Positions 22,735 to 63,053 of a DNA stretch of 64,000 bases are shown piece after piece. The position numbers and the translations under genes are program-made. The notes below the pieces were generated by a model, which was not told where the DNA came from, did no database searches, and was given only the letters and a program-made list of their open reading frames with translations. The stretch is from Posidoniimonas corsicana (GTDB taxonomy: Bacteria; Planctomycetota; Planctomycetia; Pirellulales; Lacipirellulaceae). Where the stretch lies: assembly GCF_007859765.1 (NCBI RefSeq), contig NZ_SIHJ01000001.1, positions 2,419,311 through 2,483,310 of the forward strand. The letters are read 5' to 3'. Each line of letters starts with the position of its first letter. Position 1 is the stretch's first letter.

Positions 22735-24034
22735 CCTGCTGGAGTGGCTCGCGTACGCAGATTAGTCGGTCCTCGTACCGCAGCAGCAGCGAGCCGTCGC
22801 CTACGGCGGTGCTGGCCCACAGCCGGCCGGGGATGGTGTTGGTGCGGACCAGCGTGAACTCGGCGCCGGGCTCAAGCACGTGCACGCCGCCACGATCGTC
22901 GGGCAGCAACACCTTACCGCCCACGGCCCAGGGCGACGCCCAAAACGCCGACGCACCGCGGACGCGTTCACGGTACGCCTGCTCGCCCGTCTTGGCGTCC
23001 AGCGCGTGCACGATCCCGCCGCGGCGGGTCAGCACGTAGACCATGCCGTCGTAGATCAACGGCGACGACATGCCGAGCGGCGTCTCGGTTGAGCCCCACA
23101 GCAGGAAGGGGCTCTGCCCGTCCTCGCCGCTTGAGATGTCGCCCTCGCCTCCGGGCTTCACCGCGAAAATGCCGCCGCGCCCGCCGCCGCGCCGCGAGCG
23201 GTCCTCGGCGCCTACAATCAGCAGCTCCTCGGTCGCCGCCGGCGAGGCCGAGCTGCGGCTGCCGCCGACGTCGAGGGTCCAGAGCAGCTCGCCGGAGGCC
23301 GGGTCGTACGAGCGGAACTTCCCGCCGCCGGTGACCAGCTCGGTCCTCAGGCTGTTCTTCCAGATAATCGGCGTGCTCCAGTTGGAGCCCTCGTCGCGGT
23401 CCTCGCGCCACAGCTCCTCACCGTTGTCGGCGTCCAGCGCAACTAAGAACGACTGGTCCTCGCTGTCAACCTGCACGAACAGCCGACCGTCGTGCAGCAC
23501 CGGTGAGCTGGAGGTGCCCCAGTCGGCTTGCATGCGGTAGGTGCCCAGGTCCTTCTGCCACACCTCGTTGCCGTCGAGGTCGTAGCAGTACAGGCCGGTC
23601 ATGCCGAAGTAGACGTACACCCGCTCGCCGTCGGTAACCGGTGTCTCCGAGGCGTAAGTGTTGTCGCGGTGCGTGCCGACCGTCGGCACGCCAGCCTTGG
23701 CCACCTTGCTCCACAGCTCGTCTCCGGATTCCAGGTCCAGACAGATAAGCTCCCACCGCTGCGGCCGACGGCGGTCGTCGCCCCCCTCGGCCTCCTCATC
23801 GGGGACCGCGGTGGCGATCAGCACCTTGCCCCCGGTGATCACCGGCGCCGCCCAGCCGCGACCCGGGATATCGGCCTTCCACGCGACGTTTTCCGATTCG
23901 CTCCAGCTGAGCGGGTGGCTGTCGCCGTCGACGACGTTGTTGCCGTTGGGGCCGCGGAACTGGGGCCAATCCGTAGCGAAGGCGGGCAGGGCGGTGAGGG
24001 CGGCCAAGGCAAAGGCCGTCAGTCGAGGCTTCAT
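22694..24034 (-). CDS. Secreted PQQ-type beta-propeller protein
   Basis: The protein (446 residues) begins with a signal peptide (MKPRLTAFALAALTALPAFA) followed by DWPQFRGPNGNNV, the standard opening of planctomycete PQQ-binding-like propeller proteins (WPxFRGPxxxG). Repeats of about 40 residues contain the W-docking pattern, such as ICLDLESGDELWSK, VALDADNGEELWRE and HALDAKTGEQAYRE. No dehydrogenase catalytic motif is seen, so it is more likely a BamB-like scaffold or binding protein than an enzyme. GGAG lies about 9 bases before ATG 24034. It converges on the GH43-like gene with a 41-base 3' overlap. Confidence 0.88.
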   Translation of the reverse strand: MKPRLTAFALAALTALPAFATDWPQFRGPNGNNVVDGDSHPLSWSESENVAWKADIPGRGWAAPVITGGKVLIATAVPDEEAEGGDDRRRPQRWELICLDLESGDELWSKVAKAGVPTVGTHRDNTYASETPVTDGERVYVYFGMTGLYCYDLDGNEVWQKDLGTYRMQADWGTSSSPVLHDGRLFVQVDSEDQSFLVALDADNGEELWREDRDEGSNWSTPIIWKNSLRTELVTGGGKFRSYDPASGELLWTLDVGGSRSSASPAATEELLIVGAEDRSRRGGGRGGIFAVKPGGEGDISSGEDGQSPFLLWGSTETPLGMSSPLIYDGMVYVLTRRGGIVHALDAKTGEQAYRERVRGASAFWASPWAVGGKVLLPDDRGGVHVLEPGAEFTLVRTNTIPGRLWASTAVGDGSLLLRYEDRLICVREPLQQAKAAPRGSGQTTR

Positions 24035-24729
24035 ATCACGTGCTCCATGGTGTGAGGGCCGGACCGAAGGGGTGGCCGCGGACCGGCCACTTTAGTGTGT
24101 TAGGACGTCGAGCTCGAAAGGGAATGAAACCCACCAGTAATGTGCAGGTTTTCCGTGATCTTTCCCCGTCTTTCCCTGACTGAGCATTTAACACTCCTGC
24201 CGCTTCGAATTTTGCGACTCTACTCGGTCGGTTTCGTCCGGTCGGATCTTTGTCAGAATCTTCTATTGCAGGCTCAACCGCGCTGCGGCAGAAGCGTGAG
24301 CCTTCTAACTTTGCCCCAACTCGATTCATCCAGGGGACGAAACGCCAGCCGGATAAACTGTGAGAACGGTCGCAAAGCTGGAAGTGTTTGGCTGTCGGTA
24401 TCCGCATCGACGCGCCCCAATGTTGCATTGCTCGGGGGCTAGCACTCGAAGGCTCGCCAATTCGCTTCGCCCCATTTGCGTAGCCGGTTCTGCGTGCAAC
24501 TGGCGGTGTCCCGCGGGTTATCCTGGGGCCACTCACCGTGGAGAATCCTCGCCGCTCAGCCGGTGCGTCTGCCTCGCGATTCGCGGCATCGACGTCCGCA
24601 ACGGGTAATGATGGATATGTGAACGGCGGCAGGAAACTGCTTGCTTCGACGCTGGCCGGCGCCCTATCCTGACGCGGGCGCTCGCCACCCGCGTTCCTCT
24701 TCTCTATCCGCCGCCAACGCCGAGTCGCC
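24035..24729. other. Long intergenic region, lower GC, no convincing gene
   Basis: This 695-base stretch separates two divergent genes. It is visibly less GC-rich than its surroundings, especially 24110-24320. Frames across it, including a 244-codon minus-strand frame at 24036-24770, show no family signature, and that frame covers both flanking promoters. A possible hairpin has arms AGGCTCA (24270-24276) and TGAGCCT (24297-24303). It may hold decayed sequence, a long leader or an RNA gene; I cannot tell which. Confidence 0.4.
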
Positions 24730-26010: not shown

Positions 26011-26762
26011 GCCTCCGGATGTCGACCCGCTACTACACCGAGAACCTGGCAAAGATCCGCTACAAGCACCTCAAGCAGGCGCTTGCGCCAACGGCAGGCC
26101 CGCTCGCGGGGCTGATGGCGGGCGGGCTGCGGCTGGCGCTCATGGCCGGCGTGCGGCTGCCGGCGGCGCACGGGGATGGTTTCCCAGGGTCGGAGCGGAC
26201 GATCGACCCGGCCGAGCTGCCGTCGGCCGCTGTGGCGAAGTGGGCGCCGATCCTGGAGCAGCTCCGCGACCTGGGCTTCGAGCCGCTGCGCACCTGCCAG
26301 GACCAGACGGTCGGCGCTAAGCTGCACTACGGCACAACCCTCTACAATCCCACGGGGAACGCCGTGGCCATCCTGGAATGGACCCGGATGGCGGGGGCGG
26401 GTGGTTTCGAGGAGAACACGCCGCTGGAGCTAAACGCCTACATCGACGGCGGCCCCGACATCGTCACCGGCGTCGTCCGGCGTCAGGACATTGCGATGGC
26501 CGACCTGGTGCAGATCGAGTCGGCCGAGATCGTCAGCTTCGACAACCGCCGCCCGCTCGGTGAGCTGTACGCTCAGCACCGCGAACGCTGCGCCGGCAAG
26601 GACGTCATCGCGGTGGGCGAAGAGAACGTCGAGGCGCTGGTCGACGCTCGCGCCCGTCAGCGGTTTGACGAGCTGCTGCAGAGCGGGCTCCTGCGGGAGC
26701 TCTCGCCCGACGAGGTGAAGCGGCTGGCGGCGGCCGACGTCGGTGAGCTGCATGACTGCTGA
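26007..26762 (+). CDS. Uncharacterised protein translationally coupled to its upstream neighbour
   Basis: The product has up to 251 residues, starting either at GTG 26007, which overlaps the previous stop by GTGA, or at ATG 26019 (MSTRYYTENL). There is no signal peptide. A short Gly/Ala-rich hydrophobic stretch (LAGLMAGGLRLALMAGV) may be a buried or membrane-associated helix. The rest is a soluble alpha/beta-looking domain with the segment LRDLGFEPLRTCQDQT and a C-terminal helical part rich in Arg and Glu. No named family is recognised. The coupled arrangement suggests a partner of the upstream membrane protein. Confidence 0.72.
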   Translation: MSLRMSTRYYTENLAKIRYKHLKQALAPTAGPLAGLMAGGLRLALMAGVRLPAAHGDGFPGSERTIDPAELPSAAVAKWAPILEQLRDLGFEPLRTCQDQTVGAKLHYGTTLYNPTGNAVAILEWTRMAGAGGFEENTPLELNAYIDGGPDIVTGVVRRQDIAMADLVQIESAEIVSFDNRRPLGELYAQHRERCAGKDVIAVGEENVEALVDARARQRFDELLQSGLLRELSPDEVKRLAAADVGELHDC

Positions 26763-26988
26763 CGCCGCGGTGCGGCCGCCGTGTCGCACGGCGCGACAGC
26801 GCGCGTCGGTCCAAACAGCACGGCGAATGTGTGACCCCACCATCCGGGGCGGTTTTCGGTCGGATTGAGGCAATGTCGTCCGGCGCCCGATTCGCTTCTA
26901 GCCACCGCGGGGTTCTCCCCGTAGTAGTATTTAGCAGCCCCCGGGCCGTCCGACGGCCCAGTTCCGCACCAATCAACCGTAGAAACCT

Positions 26989-28107
26989 ATGCCAACCCGA
27001 ATCGCGACTGGATTGCTAGTTACCTGCTTGCTGCTAACGCCGGCCGCCGGCCTGCGCCCGGCCGCGGCCGCCGAGGCCGATGCCAAGGCGGTGGTCGCGA
27101 AGGGGCTGTCGTTCCTGCGTGAGAAAGGCCAGGACGCCAACGGGGCGTTTTCTCCGCGGGCGGGGTCGGGCATCACATCGTTGTGCGTTACAGCGGCTCT
27201 GCTGAACGGCGCCGGCCTGGACGACCCGCTCGTGGCGAAGGGGCTCAAGGCGGTAGAGGGCTACGTGCAGCCGGACGGCGGCATCTACGGCAGCCCCCGG
27301 CTGAAGAACTACGAGACCTGCGTCGGCATCGTCTGCCTGGTCGAGGCCAACAAGCGGGCCGGCGACGGCCGCTACGACGAGACCCTCAAACGAGCCAACG
27401 CCTACGTGCGCGGCTTGCAGATCGGAGCCGAGGGCGAGGTCGGTAAGGACGACCCGCAGTTCGGCGGCGTCGGCTACAGCGGCCGCGAGCGGCCCGACCT
27501 GTCCAACACCAGCTACCTGGTCGAGACGCTGATCGCCATGGGCGCCCAGGACGACGACCCGGCCATCCAGCGCGCGCTGGCGTTCGTGACCCGTTGCCAG
27601 AACCTCCAGGGCGCCGGCAACGACACCCCGTTCGCCGGCAAGGTGAACGACGGCGGCTTCTACTACGTGATCCCCACCGAGAACGTCGACCCGTCGACCT
27701 CCGAACGCTACACGGCCGACGGCGGGCTGCGGAGCTACGGCTCGATGACCTACGCCGGCTTCAAGAGCATGGTCTACGCCGGCCTGAACGAGAACGACCC
27801 CCGCGTGAAGGCCGCCCTGGAGTGGATCGGCAAGCACTACAGCGTCGAGAAGAACCCGGGCCAGGGGACCGCGGGCCTGTTCTACTACTACAACACGTTC
27901 GGCAAGGCGCTTGAGGCTTCTGGCAAGGCGAAGATCGACACCGCCAGCGAGGGCGAGCGCGACTGGCGGCAGGACCTGATCGCCGAGCTCGCCAAGAAGC
28001 AGCGCGACGACGGCTCGTGGGCCAACTCCAACCAGCAGTGGTTCGAGAACGACCCGAACCTCTGCACCGCCTTCGCGTTGCTGGCCCTGTCGTACTGTCA
28101 GCAATGA
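26989..28107 (+). CDS. Secreted prenyltransferase/squalene-cyclase-fold repeat protein
   Basis: The 372-residue protein carries a signal peptide (TGLLVTCLLLTPAAGL, cleaved near RPAAAAEA) and repeats of the alpha-alpha barrel seen in prenyltransferases and squalene cyclases: GLKAVEGYVQPDGGIYG, ERPDLSNTSYLVETLIAM and KKQRDDGSWANSNQQWFEND. The cyclase catalytic DxDD motif is not seen, and the exported form argues against terpene synthesis. Such secreted barrels are common in planctomycetes and have no proven role. Its stop overlaps the next start by ATGA (28104-28107), so the two form an operon. Confidence 0.85.
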   Translation: MPTRIATGLLVTCLLLTPAAGLRPAAAAEADAKAVVAKGLSFLREKGQDANGAFSPRAGSGITSLCVTAALLNGAGLDDPLVAKGLKAVEGYVQPDGGIYGSPRLKNYETCVGIVCLVEANKRAGDGRYDETLKRANAYVRGLQIGAEGEVGKDDPQFGGVGYSGRERPDLSNTSYLVETLIAMGAQDDDPAIQRALAFVTRCQNLQGAGNDTPFAGKVNDGGFYYVIPTENVDPSTSERYTADGGLRSYGSMTYAGFKSMVYAGLNENDPRVKAALEWIGKHYSVEKNPGQGTAGLFYYYNTFGKALEASGKAKIDTASEGERDWRQDLIAELAKKQRDDGSWANSNQQWFENDPNLCTAFALLALSYCQQ

Positions 28108-28838
28108 TCGGTCCGCGGTTGGCGAGGTTGAGCGGGTGGGTGTCGGCTACGGTGTGGGCGGTCAACGTGGGTTTGCTCGCCGCTGCCGCGGCGTGGGTCT
28201 ACTTGGACGGCGGCGCTCCCCACAGCGTTGAGGCCATTGCGGAGCTGCGGGCAGGTTCGACCTGGAGCGACCAGACCACCGCTCTCGCGAGCGCCGTCGT
28301 GGCGGCGGCCGCCACCGCGGTCGTGATGCTCCTGATGTTGTTCATCGGTCCCCCCTGGTGCCGCTCAACCAAGGCCTGGCTGCTGTTCACCGGCGTGGTG
28401 TGCGGGTGGCTCGGCCTGGGCATCCTGTGGCCCGATCTGTACTGGGCGGGCCAGCAGCGGCGGGTTGCGTCGGAGCTGGCCGCGGCGACCGAGTTCGCCC
28501 GGCAACTCAGCACCGACTGGCCAACCAACGACGGCGAGCTGCCCGGCGTGGGGATGTTCCTGGCCTACCCCAAGGGGGCGCCGACCGTGATGCTGCTGAT
28601 CGGCACGGCGGAGATCCCCGGCACGGGCCTGTGGTTCACCCTGGTCGAGCGGGGGCCCGGCGGCGTGCTGCGTTTCGAGCTGGCCGGCGACGAATCCGAC
28701 GCGTGGCTCGAGTGGCGCCCCGACGGCTCGTCCCCGGAGACCTACGTCGGCGGCCTAGAAACCCACTACCGGCTCCGCCGCGACACGCGGCTGTCTGACC
28801 AGTGGGTGCTCTCGCGGTACGACGCGGGACCGGGTTGA
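28104..28838 (+). CDS. Uncharacterised membrane protein
   Basis: Starting at ATG 28104, which overlaps the upstream stop (ATGA), the 244-residue protein has three hydrophobic helices in its first half: ATVWAVNVGLLAAAAAWVYL, a second around AAATAVVMLLMLFIG, and WLLFTGVVCGWLGLGILW. A C-terminal soluble domain of about 120 residues follows (FARQLSTDWPTNDGELPGVG onward). No family is recognised. The coupling suggests it acts with the secreted repeat protein. The last 200 bases are read through on the other strand by the recombinase frame. Confidence 0.72.
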   Translation: MIGPRLARLSGWVSATVWAVNVGLLAAAAAWVYLDGGAPHSVEAIAELRAGSTWSDQTTALASAVVAAAATAVVMLLMLFIGPPWCRSTKAWLLFTGVVCGWLGLGILWPDLYWAGQQRRVASELAAATEFARQLSTDWPTNDGELPGVGMFLAYPKGAPTVMLLIGTAEIPGTGLWFTLVERGPGGVLRFELAGDESDAWLEWRPDGSSPETYVGGLETHYRLRRDTRLSDQWVLSRYDAGPG

Positions 28839-30000
28839 GTCCCATTCGTTTTGTCCAAAAACACGCGCGGAGGCTCGCTAAATGCTCTGTTTTTCTACGC
28901 CGGTCCTTGAATTCATAGTGGAGCTGCTCCCCTTTAATGCGGACGCCCCTGAAGACCGTCTCTCGCCGAACCTTCTGCCGCTTGAAGCCCTTCAGGTCGA
29001 TGCAGAGCTTGTGTTTGGAGAGCGGCTTGTGGCCTTGCTCATGGCACCATCTAGAGAAGTGCTGGTAGAGACCCGCCAAGGGCAGGCAGGTGCTTTCAGA
29101 GGCCTTTTCGATCTTCTCGCTGGCGTATTGAGCTGACAGGCTTAGTTCTTGAGAAGGCAGGTAGGCCTTTAGTATGTTATTGTTGGCTACATTTTTATAA
29201 AGAATGTGATATGAGAGAGCTTTTCCCTCTTTGGTCTTGTAGCCTTCATCGATCATCCGCTGGAGAGTAATCGTCAGCGGGTAGCCCTCGTCAAGAAGTT
29301 CTTTGGCCCGCTTGATCGTTGGAGCTTCTAGCGTTCGCCGCCTGACGCCGCTGCTTCGGCTTCCGTAGAGCTTGCTGCTGAAGTGATGAATGACCGCCAG
29401 TAGGTCCTCGGCCAACTCTTCTTTCTCTTCAAGGTCTTGCTTCTCTGTGAATACAACACGTACCTCGTACTGGGTTAATAGGTACAGGATGAGTTCAGTT
29501 CCAAAGCGAGCTAGTCTGTCCTTCTGAGTAATTAAGAGGGTGGCCCCATTGAGCTTTCCATTGATCGCATCACCCAGCAGTGTGGTTAATCCACGCCGCT
29601 GATAATTAAGACCACTCAGTACATCCTTATAGACCAGTGGATCCTTGCACTGATAAAGATCTAAAGCTGAGGCTTTTAACCTCTCAATCTGTCTTGCTAG
29701 ATCATTATCCTTGCCCCCTTTCGCGAAGCCCTTCGCCTGATCGTTAGTCGAAACGCGCGCGTAGATCGCAACCACGCCCGCTGATTTGGGCTGGCTTTTC
29801 TCAGAGTTGATCCAGGCCAGAAGGTCGCTGCGCAGAAAGCGGCGGTGGCCAGAAGGCAGCTTATAGACTTTCAGCTCGCCCGAATCGGCTGCTCTTCGAA
29901 CAGTTGACCCATGGCAGCCCGCTAGAGCTGCAGCGTCTCGTAAGGCCAGGAACTGGGCACCGCGTGCAGGTTCCCCGTTTTGTGCACCTTGAGCGGCCAT
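28636..30000 (-). CDS. IS607-like serine recombinase with an unusual C-terminal extension
   Basis: The 454-codon frame has three parts. Residues about 16-66 form a MerR/excisionase-type helix-turn-helix ending KLPSGHRRFLRSDLLAW, the arrangement in IS607-family transposases. Residues about 75-235 are a serine resolvase domain with catalytic S84 in YARVSTNDQ and TQKDRLARFG. Residues about 310-370 (YQHFSRWCHEQGHKPLSKHK and the VFRGVRIKG strand) resemble the winged-helix end of phage/P4-type primases (Pox_D5-like). That last match is my inference. GC content drops sharply between about 28870 and 30060, indicating transfer. The final 75 or so codons read antisense through the neighbour gene and are Arg-rich, so the natural end was probably near 28860 and may be truncated. 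No tnpB accompanies it. Confidence 0.85.
   Translation of the reverse strand: MAAQGAQNGEPARGAQFLALRDAAALAGCHGSTVRRAADSGELKVYKLPSGHRRFLRSDLLAWINSEKSQPKSAGVVAIYARVSTNDQAKGFAKGGKDNDLARQIERLKASALDLYQCKDPLVYKDVLSGLNYQRRGLTTLLGDAINGKLNGATLLITQKDRLARFGTELILYLLTQYEVRVVFTEKQDLEEKEELAEDLLAVIHHFSSKLYGSRSSGVRRRTLEAPTIKRAKELLDEGYPLTITLQRMIDEGYKTKEGKALSYHILYKNVANNNILKAYLPSQELSLSAQYASEKIEKASESTCLPLAGLYQHFSRWCHEQGHKPLSKHKLCIDLKGFKRQKVRRETVFRGVRIKGEQLHYEFKDRRRKTEHLASLRACFWTKRMGLNPVPRRTARAPTGQTAACRGGAGSGFLGRRRRSPGTSRRGATRATRRIRRRPARNAARRRAPARPG
28849..28856 (+). repeat. TTTTGTCC motif at the left edge of the recombinase island
   Basis: TTTTGTCC (followed by AAAA) lies 11 bases after the stop of the neighbouring gene, where GC content begins to fall. 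The same octamer, in either orientation, recurs at 30066 and 30159 on the other side of the recombinase and in a cluster at 61886-62044. Confidence 0.45.
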
Positions 30001-30041
30001 GATCCCCGAAGAATTCGAGTCAGGAAGTCAGCCGCTGATAG

Positions 30042-30060
30042 ATTTTGGTAGAATTTTGGT
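30042..30060. repeat. Direct repeat ATTTTGGT upstream of the recombinase
   Basis: ATTTTGGT occurs at 30042-30049 and 30053-30060, an 11-base step (about one helical turn), 42-60 bases before the recombinase ATG. Direct repeats on one face of the helix suggest a binding site, perhaps for the recombinase's own helix-turn-helix. Confidence 0.45.
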
Positions 30061-30064
30061 GGCG

Positions 30065-30166
30065 GGGACAAAACTCGGGGCCTACTCCGGCCTTGAATTG
30101 TCGTAAGTGCTTTCGTGCTGGTTGATTCCGTTCCTATCCCCAACGAGGCGCGGCGGGGTTTTGTCC
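30065..30166. repeat. Inverted GGACAAAA motifs right of the recombinase
   Basis: GGGACAAAACTC is at 30065-30076 and an inverted TTTTGTCC at 30159-30166. The 12-mer at 30065 recurs exactly at 62036-62047. With the copy at 28849 these bracket the recombinase gene. Confidence 0.5.
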
Positions 30167-30452
30167 GATTTGGGGGACGCGGAACGGACGTTCCTTTCTG
30201 TGCTCGGATAAGATCTCAGCGCGCAGCGGGCGCCGCTGCCCACTGGCGTACATGCGGTCCCTTCATTAGACCGCGCTGGGTGGCCGTTTTCAGCTAAGAA
30301 CCGGCAACCAAACAAGAGAAGAGCGCCGCCCTCCGAGCCCCGCCCGTTCGACCCGCGCGGGGGCTGGCGGGTGCGACCGCTGCCCGCGATGGCGTCCGAC
30401 TCGGTTCAGACTTCAACCACGCACGACGCCCCGCTGTCGACGCGGCGCGGGC

Positions 30453-61827: not shown

Positions 61828-62360
61828 CGTCGCCATGTTTTTTGGGCCCCACGGCCCGGTGGCCGCTAGAGTTTCGCCGCGGGACTTTTGTCCCGTTCTG
61901 GCGCATCGAGTTTTAGGGACAAAAGTCGGAGGGTTTTGTCTCCCTCGGTTTTCGTTTCACCCTGCTATAGCAGCGCCGACGGCGCCGCACCGGGGACAAA
62001 ACGACCCGACTTTTGTCCAACCTTGTGACCCCATAGGGACAAAACTCATCCGAAGCTCCTTCCCCAAGAGAACGATCCACGCCGCAACCATCGGCGGAAG
62101 CCGCTGGTCTTTGATCCCTAGCACACCGCCCAGCGCAACCCTCATTGCACCACAGCAGGTGGCCGGTTTCTACCGAAAAGATGTGAGTGGGACGGAGTAC
62201 TTGGAGGCGGTTGGCCCGGCGCAGTTCGCGATCCATGCACCCACCGTGAGGAGGCCGTCGTAACTTGCGAAGTGTTGCGGGTAGTTCAAGTGCCAACGAT
62301 ACTGCTTGCCAGTTGCTGATCGAAATAGACGAGTCACTCCGTCCAATGTGTCCACCGACT
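61828..62360. other. Intergenic region with a dense cluster of GGACAAAA motifs
   Basis: Between the terminator and the DUF1963-like gene, five exact copies of GGACAAAA/TTTTGTCC and one near copy occur in alternating orientation at 61886-62044, within 159 bases. No gene is supported in this stretch; the frames that cross it are shadows. GC content is lower than in the surrounding genes. The remainder (62050-62360) shows no clear feature. Confidence 0.55.
61886..62044. repeat. Alternating inverted GGACAAAA motif cluster
   Basis: TTTTGTCC lies at 61886-61893 and 62011-62018, and GGACAAAA at 61917-61924, 61994-62001 and 62037-62044, with a one-base variant TTTTGTCT at 61934-61941. Orientation alternates throughout. 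GGACAAAAGTCGG (61917-61929) is the exact reverse complement of CCGACTTTTGTCC (62006-62018), a 13-base inverted repeat with 76 bases between. The core matches motifs flanking the recombinase at 28849 and 30066-30166. Confidence 0.6.
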
Positions 62361-63053
62361 ATGGATCTTACAACGCTTCTCCGGCAGATAGGCCGCCCTT
62401 GCACGGCCTTCGACGTGGGTGGGTTTCGCCCGACGAACGACATCGAAGAGTCATGGCTGGGTCGGGTAACCCACTACGCGGCGGACGAAACGGCGCCGAC
62501 AGACAAGCACGGGGAACCGATGCTCGAACTGGGGCAATTCTACCTACCAGTAATGCCGTTCGTCCCGGCTTCGCTCGCTGGGACGACGCTTCTGACAGCC
62601 TTCATCTCACCGAACCTCGAAGGCGACAGCGACCTCATGGACGGCTGCTGGGAGATCCGAGAATACCGCAGCCATGCAGGCCTCGTCCGTAGATCGTCTG
62701 AGAAGACAGCTACGGGGCTGAAGCCGCTCCCCCTACGCAGCTATCTTGTCGATGCCGACCACCCCGTCTGGGACGGCGGCGGCCTGACCGCGGAACAGGA
62801 GGACGCATTCATTGCGCTGGAGCGGGAAGGAGCGATTGCAGATTACTTCGACGTCACTTCCCACATCTACGGGCATAAGTTTGGCGGGTATCCTTCCTTC
62901 TGCCAGTCAGGCGTCGATCTTCATCCCTTTGAGTTCGTGTTTCAGGTGTCGTCAGACCCCAAGATTCAACTGAACGTGATCGACAACGGGAGCCTCACTT
63001 TCTGGCGCCACCCTGAGTTGGGAACTTGGAAGTTATACTACGACTTTTACTAG
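62361..63053 (+). CDS. DUF1963 (YwqG-like) family protein
   Basis: From ATG 62361 the product has about 230 residues (ATG 62346 and TTG 62265 are alternatives). It contains LTTLLRQIGRPCTAFDVGG, WLGRVTHYAADETAPTDKHG and LGQFYLPVMPFVP, then the late GHKFGGYPSFCQSGVDLHP, the layout of the DUF1963/YwqG family whose function is not well defined. GC content is lower than in the genes around it, and the gene follows the GGACAAAA cluster, both of which suggest acquisition by transfer. Family assignment is from memory of motif order. Confidence 0.65.
   Translation: MDLTTLLRQIGRPCTAFDVGGFRPTNDIEESWLGRVTHYAADETAPTDKHGEPMLELGQFYLPVMPFVPASLAGTTLLTAFISPNLEGDSDLMDGCWEIREYRSHAGLVRRSSEKTATGLKPLPLRSYLVDADHPVWDGGGLTAEQEDAFIALEREGAIADYFDVTSHIYGHKFGGYPSFCQSGVDLHPFEFVFQVSSDPKIQLNVIDNGSLTFWRHPELGTWKLYYDFY

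Follow-up and report, generated by a model that had tools for sequence, protein, structure and literature searches.

The 64,000-nucleotide stretch of Posidoniimonas corsicana DNA analyzed here (the window) most probably carries a one-gene serine transposon of IS607-like lineage that lacks TnpB and has DNA-binding domains at both ends of its transposase. We put the probability of this reading at roughly 70%. The catalytic part places the protein in the IS607 group, and the lack of TnpB together with DNA-binding modules at both ends departs from the family as described. At the level of sequence, the analysis established the order of the domains, the invariance of the catalytic residues, the mobility of the elements and the matching of their end dinucleotides. 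How the IS607 arrangement places the DNA becomes directly open to experiment in a natural lineage whose transposase has DNA-binding modules at either end, a lineage that also provides a compact serine transposon of one gene with a modular tail.

The recombinase is read from a translated open reading frame of 454 aa on the minus strand (28636-30000, start at 30000), and the following domains were assigned:

29803..29955, minus strand: MerR/excisionase-type N-terminal HTH, residues 16-66 (Pfam HTH_17 and alignment)
29347..29772, minus strand: serine recombinase catalytic domain, residues 77-218, with S84, R162 and R165 (Pfam Resolvase; Foldseek to ISC1926 TnpA)
29185..29328, minus strand: HTH resembling that in the Recombinase domain of large serine recombinases, residues 225-272 (PF07508 below cut-off; extension profile; structure model)
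28906..29139, minus strand: winged helix of Pox_D5/P4-OBD/RFX type, residues 288-365 (Pfam; Z to 1dp7 and 1ka8)

Pfam analysis of the full protein identified HTH_17 at residues 21-66 (E=8.4e-9) and Resolvase at residues 77-218 (E=1.3e-15), and the NCBIfam model for IS607 transposases, NF033518, scored 141.2 bits against a cut-off of 110. The residues S84, R162 and R165 were invariant in all ten proteins of an alignment of the window's fusion with nine others. These results agree with an earlier sequence-only reading, which had recognized an IS607-like MerR/excisionase HTH and a serine resolvase domain with S84. For the C-terminal extension, Pox_D5 matched at residues 298-339 (E=2.8e-4 for the full protein; E=2.9e-5 and 24.9 bits against a cut-off of 21.4 for the extension alone). 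Five PHROG primase families matched at the same place (E 0.0024 to 0.16), and RFX5 was matched in the PDB sequence search (E=1.5e-6), in which a designed protein ranked above it (E=9.1e-12, none of its stretches passing by itself) and several unrelated chains followed at weaker E. The Recombinase domain PF07508 was found on the extension alone at E=0.015, its 15.9 bits lying under the cut-off of 21.1. The zinc beta ribbon PF13408, D5_N and helicase domains gave no Pfam match to the full protein at E up to 1.

A profile of the extension matched 39 of the 392 phylum genomes. Both C-terminal modules were covered by one match in the window's own genome only, and the other matches covered either the winged-helix part or the first HTH. 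Nine of these loci were inspected and five of the nine domain-scanned; the four HTH-type loci encoded Resolvase plus Recombinase domains, and the one of winged-helix type a D5_N/Pox_D5 protein. Because the profile matches split into these two protein types, the tail is, judged by its homologies, an HTH like that of large serine recombinases with a primase-like winged helix after it. The sequence-only reading had interpreted the C-terminal region as a primase-like winged helix, and this part of it stands (residues 288-365), backed by Pox_D5, the PHROG primases, RFX5, the fold comparison below and collinear homologues, but its layout needs the HTH at residues 225-272 added between this winged helix and the catalytic domain. 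As separate observations, phrog_7601, a phage family with unknown function, matched residues 244-362, most of both modules (E=7e-5), and a locus outside the window in the same genome (L045, G000:C1:3108076) encodes a P4-type primase with D5_N and Pox_D5.

The model of the full protein was of modest confidence (mean pLDDT 65.3, pTM 0.34), and that of the extension alone was better (pLDDT 79.4, pTM 0.52). The best PDB matches of the full model in Foldseek were IS607-family catalytic domains (ISC1926 TnpA, E 1.1e-7), with MerR-family folds also among the matches. Residues 225-272 formed three helices in the extension model. The Foldseek check that had been proposed for the extension returned RFX-DBD (E=1.5e-3) and RFX5 (E=1.8e-3) as the top matches, with none at E 0.001 or better. 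VIA-align gave a Z of 9.1 for RFX-DBD (1dp7) and RFX5 alike, with ASFV PrimPol at 7.9 and the origin-binding domain of phage P4 (1ka8) at 7.5, where values under 8 may reflect no more than a common arrangement. The sequence matches to RFX5 and Pox_D5 agree with the fold comparison in assigning a winged helix.

The boundaries of the window element were placed by comparing its flanks with other loci of the same genome, which gave the following features:

28874..30065, no strand: mobile element, 1192 bp including one of the two GG copies (joined-site alignment to repeat loci)
28876..30000, minus strand: recombinase gene, residues 1-375, with no stop codon inside the element
28636..28875, minus strand: tail read through from codon 376 up to the stop, covering the junction, the host repeat and antisense sequence of the adjacent gene
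28872..28873, no strand: left GG dinucleotide
30064..30065, no strand: right GG dinucleotide, then the remaining GG of the host repeat
28840..28873, plus strand: left half of the split host repeat
30066..30110, plus strand: right half of the split host repeat
30042..30060, minus strand: two direct copies of ACCAAAAT, 11 bp apart, by the gene-proximal end; candidate binding sites

The sequence-only reading had taken a bracketing motif, GTTTTGTCC/GGACAAAAC, as a mark of the element. As an element end or transposase site this motif was rejected, since it belongs to a dispersed host repeat of which one copy is split by the element. The word GGGACAAAAC occurred in 107 copies in the genome versus 3 of a reversed control, and the 30 places fetched with it revealed the repeat, with inverted arms TTTTGTCC..GGGACAAAA and a paired core that was present in 23 of the 30. 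Several pairs recurred at spacings of 93, 118 or 150 bp. In 13 stretches of related genomes (9-19 kb), the word GGGACAAAA was found at most once per stretch. Motifs related to the host repeat were also observed within the window at 30158-30166 and 61886-62044.

The flanks of the window element are the two halves of one copy of this repeat, the left ending ..CACGCGCGGAGG at 28873 and the right starting GGGGACAAAACTC.. at 30064. When joined without the element, they aligned across the junction to 21 of the 30 fetched repeat loci, representing 19 distinct places, with 13 of the 21 rows free of gaps; one further row aligned right of the junction only, and eight loci gave no match. The junction comparison showed no duplication beyond the GG, and no long inverted repeat was found at the element ends. 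Based on these alignments we conclude that the element is inserted at a GG inside the dispersed repeat and that its removal restores the repeat, in line with the mobile origin suggested earlier. The sharp drop in GC content on which that suggestion had drawn was also confirmed, at 0.524 in the element versus 0.681 and 0.688 in the 10-kb flanks; further dips in the window are seen at 24000-24499 (0.568) and 62001-63000 (0.588). An empty site was sought by synteny in the same-genus genome G450, which lacks the whole stretch 26726-30450 and is therefore uninformative for the element. In its place, G450 has about 50 bp between the gene ending near 26762 and a gene which we take to be sigma-factor-like. 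Because about 50 bp stand there, two host genes and the repeat copy with the element are absent at that place in G450.

The open reading frame at 28636-30000 thus exists as first described, but only residues 1-375 lie in the element and about 240 bases are host DNA. Codon 376 spans the junction between element and host, and the frame continues through the repeat and then antisense to a host gene that ends at 28838, with the element contributing only its first two bases to this tail. Read from the junction, the part after codon 375 really is chance read-through. The genome contains no second copy, and this one lacks its own stop codon, so it may be inactive.

Where ends could be placed, which was the case for the elements of the window and of genomes G744, G736 and G588 (left out are those of G768, G742, G999 and G815), the elements measured 1.2-2.2 kb with the recombinase as the only gene. 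G744 contains two copies of 1431 bp that are 99.93% identical, 8088 bp apart, and begin and end with CT. Since two nearly identical copies have unrelated flanks, the fusion elements are shown by comparison to be mobile, which is also supported by the precise insertion in the dispersed repeat. No empty site was obtained for G744, the nearest relative of which shares no left flank. Two copies of 1723 and 1746 bp with 90% identity were found in Bythopirellula polymerisocia Pla144 (G736; family Lacipirellulaceae, order Pirellulales), with TA common to one end, TAC to the other, and similar A-rich words near both. The two copies in G588, of about 2.2 kb, have GG near both ends, which are less certain in that the shared sequence starts four bases before the left GG and stops one base after the right GG. 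The end dinucleotides thus vary, being GG in the window and G588, CT in G744 and perhaps TA in Bythopirellula. Both G588 sites have CCCTGG just left of the junction, and some preference for target sequence is possible there. The G588 elements (L076 6977-9191 and L077) are also mosaic: per 100 columns, about 490 bp of 3' non-coding sequence (L076 8475-8965) shows 88-94 matches and most of the gene 41-61, and a 5'-end stretch of about 140 bp is 88% identical. A convincing set of end repeats did not emerge from comparison of the elements, and in the analysis of phased end repeats the gene-proximal end of the window element alone stood out, weakly (p=0.002 by shuffling, 1 of 12 ends tested). Rfam gave no family at gathering score in the window element or a G588 element.

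The full protein matched in 32 of the 392 phylum genomes, with no match past residue 244 outside the window's own genome. When the extension alone was searched against 397 class genomes, it matched, beyond its own genome, two places in each of two same-family genomes; a further genome gave a single short, weak match. With a profile built from five extensions, one more fusion genome was added among the family's 43, the other new matches being, by eye, primases and one large serine recombinase. A profile of six extensions matched 27 of 376 order genomes, eight of which contain the collinear fusion. These are G000 (the window's genome), G736, G588 and G768 in one family, G742, G999 and G815 in a second and G744 in a third. 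Some of the non-fusion matches were inspected; L061, L063, L067 and L071 read as primases, and L054 and L069 were left without an assignment. With a full-length profile, 14 places were found in the eight genomes at E 4.7e-66 or better. The winged helix was present in 12 of them, one was cut within the extension by a contig end, and one, located near a contig end, breaks off after the catalytic part.

The fusions carry one or two winged helices. The full window protein aligned to all nine other fusions, and its extension alone to eight of them, not including the one from G744. In G736 and G588, the second winged helix aligned weakly to the first of the others. A third, divergent copy of 436 aa is seen in G744 (L165 4078-5385), with no blastn match to the stretch with the other two. 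Viral contigs contained no close relatives by full protein, extension or extension alignment, and nine ordinary IS607-like loci by the catalytic alignment. The full protein matched 154 plasmid and 32 phage records, none over 80% of the query, and the best 20 of each end at residue 244 or before; the extension alone matched six plasmid records and one phage record at E 0.2 or worse. Other phyla were covered by a single pattern scan of genome contigs, which gave four loci, all planctomycete. No description of a recombinase/winged-helix fusion was present among the literature titles and abstracts listed, a scope outside which most subscription journals fall.

A tree of the N-terminal and catalytic parts was built from nine fusions and 20 ordinary IS607-like proteins (16 locus ORFs and four named records), leaving out the near-copies L035 and L073 and later finds. 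All fusions fell on one side of a branch with support 89/71, recovered in 94% of 200 bootstrap trees, in a tree with long branches in four rows; a single origin of the fusion is likely from this topology. Between the two Bythopirellula proteins, 14 of 458 residues are different at a dS of 0.334, and dN/dS was 0.146 for the N-terminus and catalytic part, 0.059 for the HTH and first winged helix and 0.064 for the second winged helix.

A TnpB partner is usual in the IS607 family and not required for transposition. As the sequence-only reading had noted for the vicinity of the gene, TnpB is missing: PF07282 had no match in the window genome (95% complete), and none in seven of the eight fusion genomes, some of which are incomplete. 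The eighth, G742, had two matches on contigs other than that of the fusion. As a control, PF07282 matched in 6 of 14 well-known genomes.

The protein shares features with several known systems. Like the IS607 family (IS607, IS1535, ISC1904, ISC1926), it combines a MerR-type N-terminal DNA-binding domain with a serine recombinase core, and the window element resembles that family in its insertion at GG without target duplication or long terminal inverted repeats; among the relatives, the dinucleotide is GG in G588 and CT in G744. Unlike that family, the window protein has no TnpB partner and is extended by about 150 aa that comprise two more modules of HTH type, while the fusion family as a whole is distinguished by an added C-terminal HTH and one or two winged helices. 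IS607 transposases are odd among serine recombinases in having the DNA-binding domain at the N-terminus, and in large serine recombinases the recombinase domain and the zinc ribbon make extra sequence-specific DNA contacts. The HTH directly after the catalytic domain resembles the latter group (PF07508 below cut-off), whereas the MerR-type HTH_17 in front of the catalytic domain and the winged helix in place of any zinc-ribbon match do not. The winged helix at residues 288-365 is like those of P4-type/D5-like primase-helicases, the P4 origin-binding domain (1ka8) and RFX-DBD (1dp7), and differs from P4-type primases in being joined to a recombinase with no D5_N match.

Passages in PMC4058570 describe IS607-family chemistry as involving a serine, a 2-bp overlap and a circular intermediate, and passages in PMC6188088 describe GG at the termini of IS607 and an invariant GG target, without duplication. 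By analogy, S84 would cut the DNA and strands would be exchanged over a 2-bp overlap, the element would move as an excised circle, and the N-terminal MerR-type domain would bind the element ends. The HTH right after the catalytic domain could contact the DNA next to the crossover, because resolvases and large serine recombinases have their DNA-binding domain at this position, and outer DNA contacts may be added by the winged helix. That the C-terminal part adds sequence-specific contacts to the element ends, as opposed to choosing the target or serving oligomerisation, is a tentative proposal to which we give slightly less than an even chance. Binding to the ends is favoured over a fixed target read by the C-terminus because the sister copies of G744 and of Bythopirellula share, by eye, no flank sequence.

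The C-terminal winged helix might instead select the target, either hairpin-forming extragenic repeats or replicating DNA, rather than the element ends, which we consider unlikely. The window element does sit in a dispersed repeat that has inverted arms, insertion sequences are known to target REPs (PMC1525189), and both G588 copies, with their shared CCCTGG, are located at the base of a strong hairpin (z of -3.41 and -3.81, against a background of 5.8% of 120 windows below z -3). However, five of the seven sites have no significant hairpin, with z values of -1.03 for the window, -1.91 and -1.03 for G744 and 1.78 and -0.12 for G736. A bolder version, in which the elements form a separate class of serine transposons with a transposase that grips DNA on either side of the catalytic domain and picks hairpin-forming extragenic repeats by a P4-OBD/RFX-type winged helix, seems quite doubtful.

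Returning to a transposon of IS607-like lineage as the preferred reading, it is very improbable that the protein is a host-domesticated site-specific resolvase, invertase or regulator. The single window copy and the lack of a stop codon inside the element would fit domestication, but the precise insertion in the repeat comprises this gene only, and the near-identical G744 copies have unrelated flanks. Even less credence is due to a known IS607 transposase with an ordinary resolvase C-terminal HTH and nothing unusual, the outcome against which the sequence-only reading had weighed its own proposal. The resemblance of residues 225-272 to a Recombinase-domain HTH speaks for it, but the 16 ordinary IS607-like ORFs compared are 189-243 aa from stop to stop, their alignments end at query residues 211-234, and the HTH is followed by a separate winged helix. 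The winged-helix matches already contradict this explanation. An open frame arising by chance, an assembly error or an accidental fusion of genes has a negligible probability: the tail after codon 375 is truly chance read-through, but for residues 1-375 this explanation is already refuted by collinear full-length homologues in three families, and the low dN/dS over the C-terminal modules of the sister pair also speaks against it.
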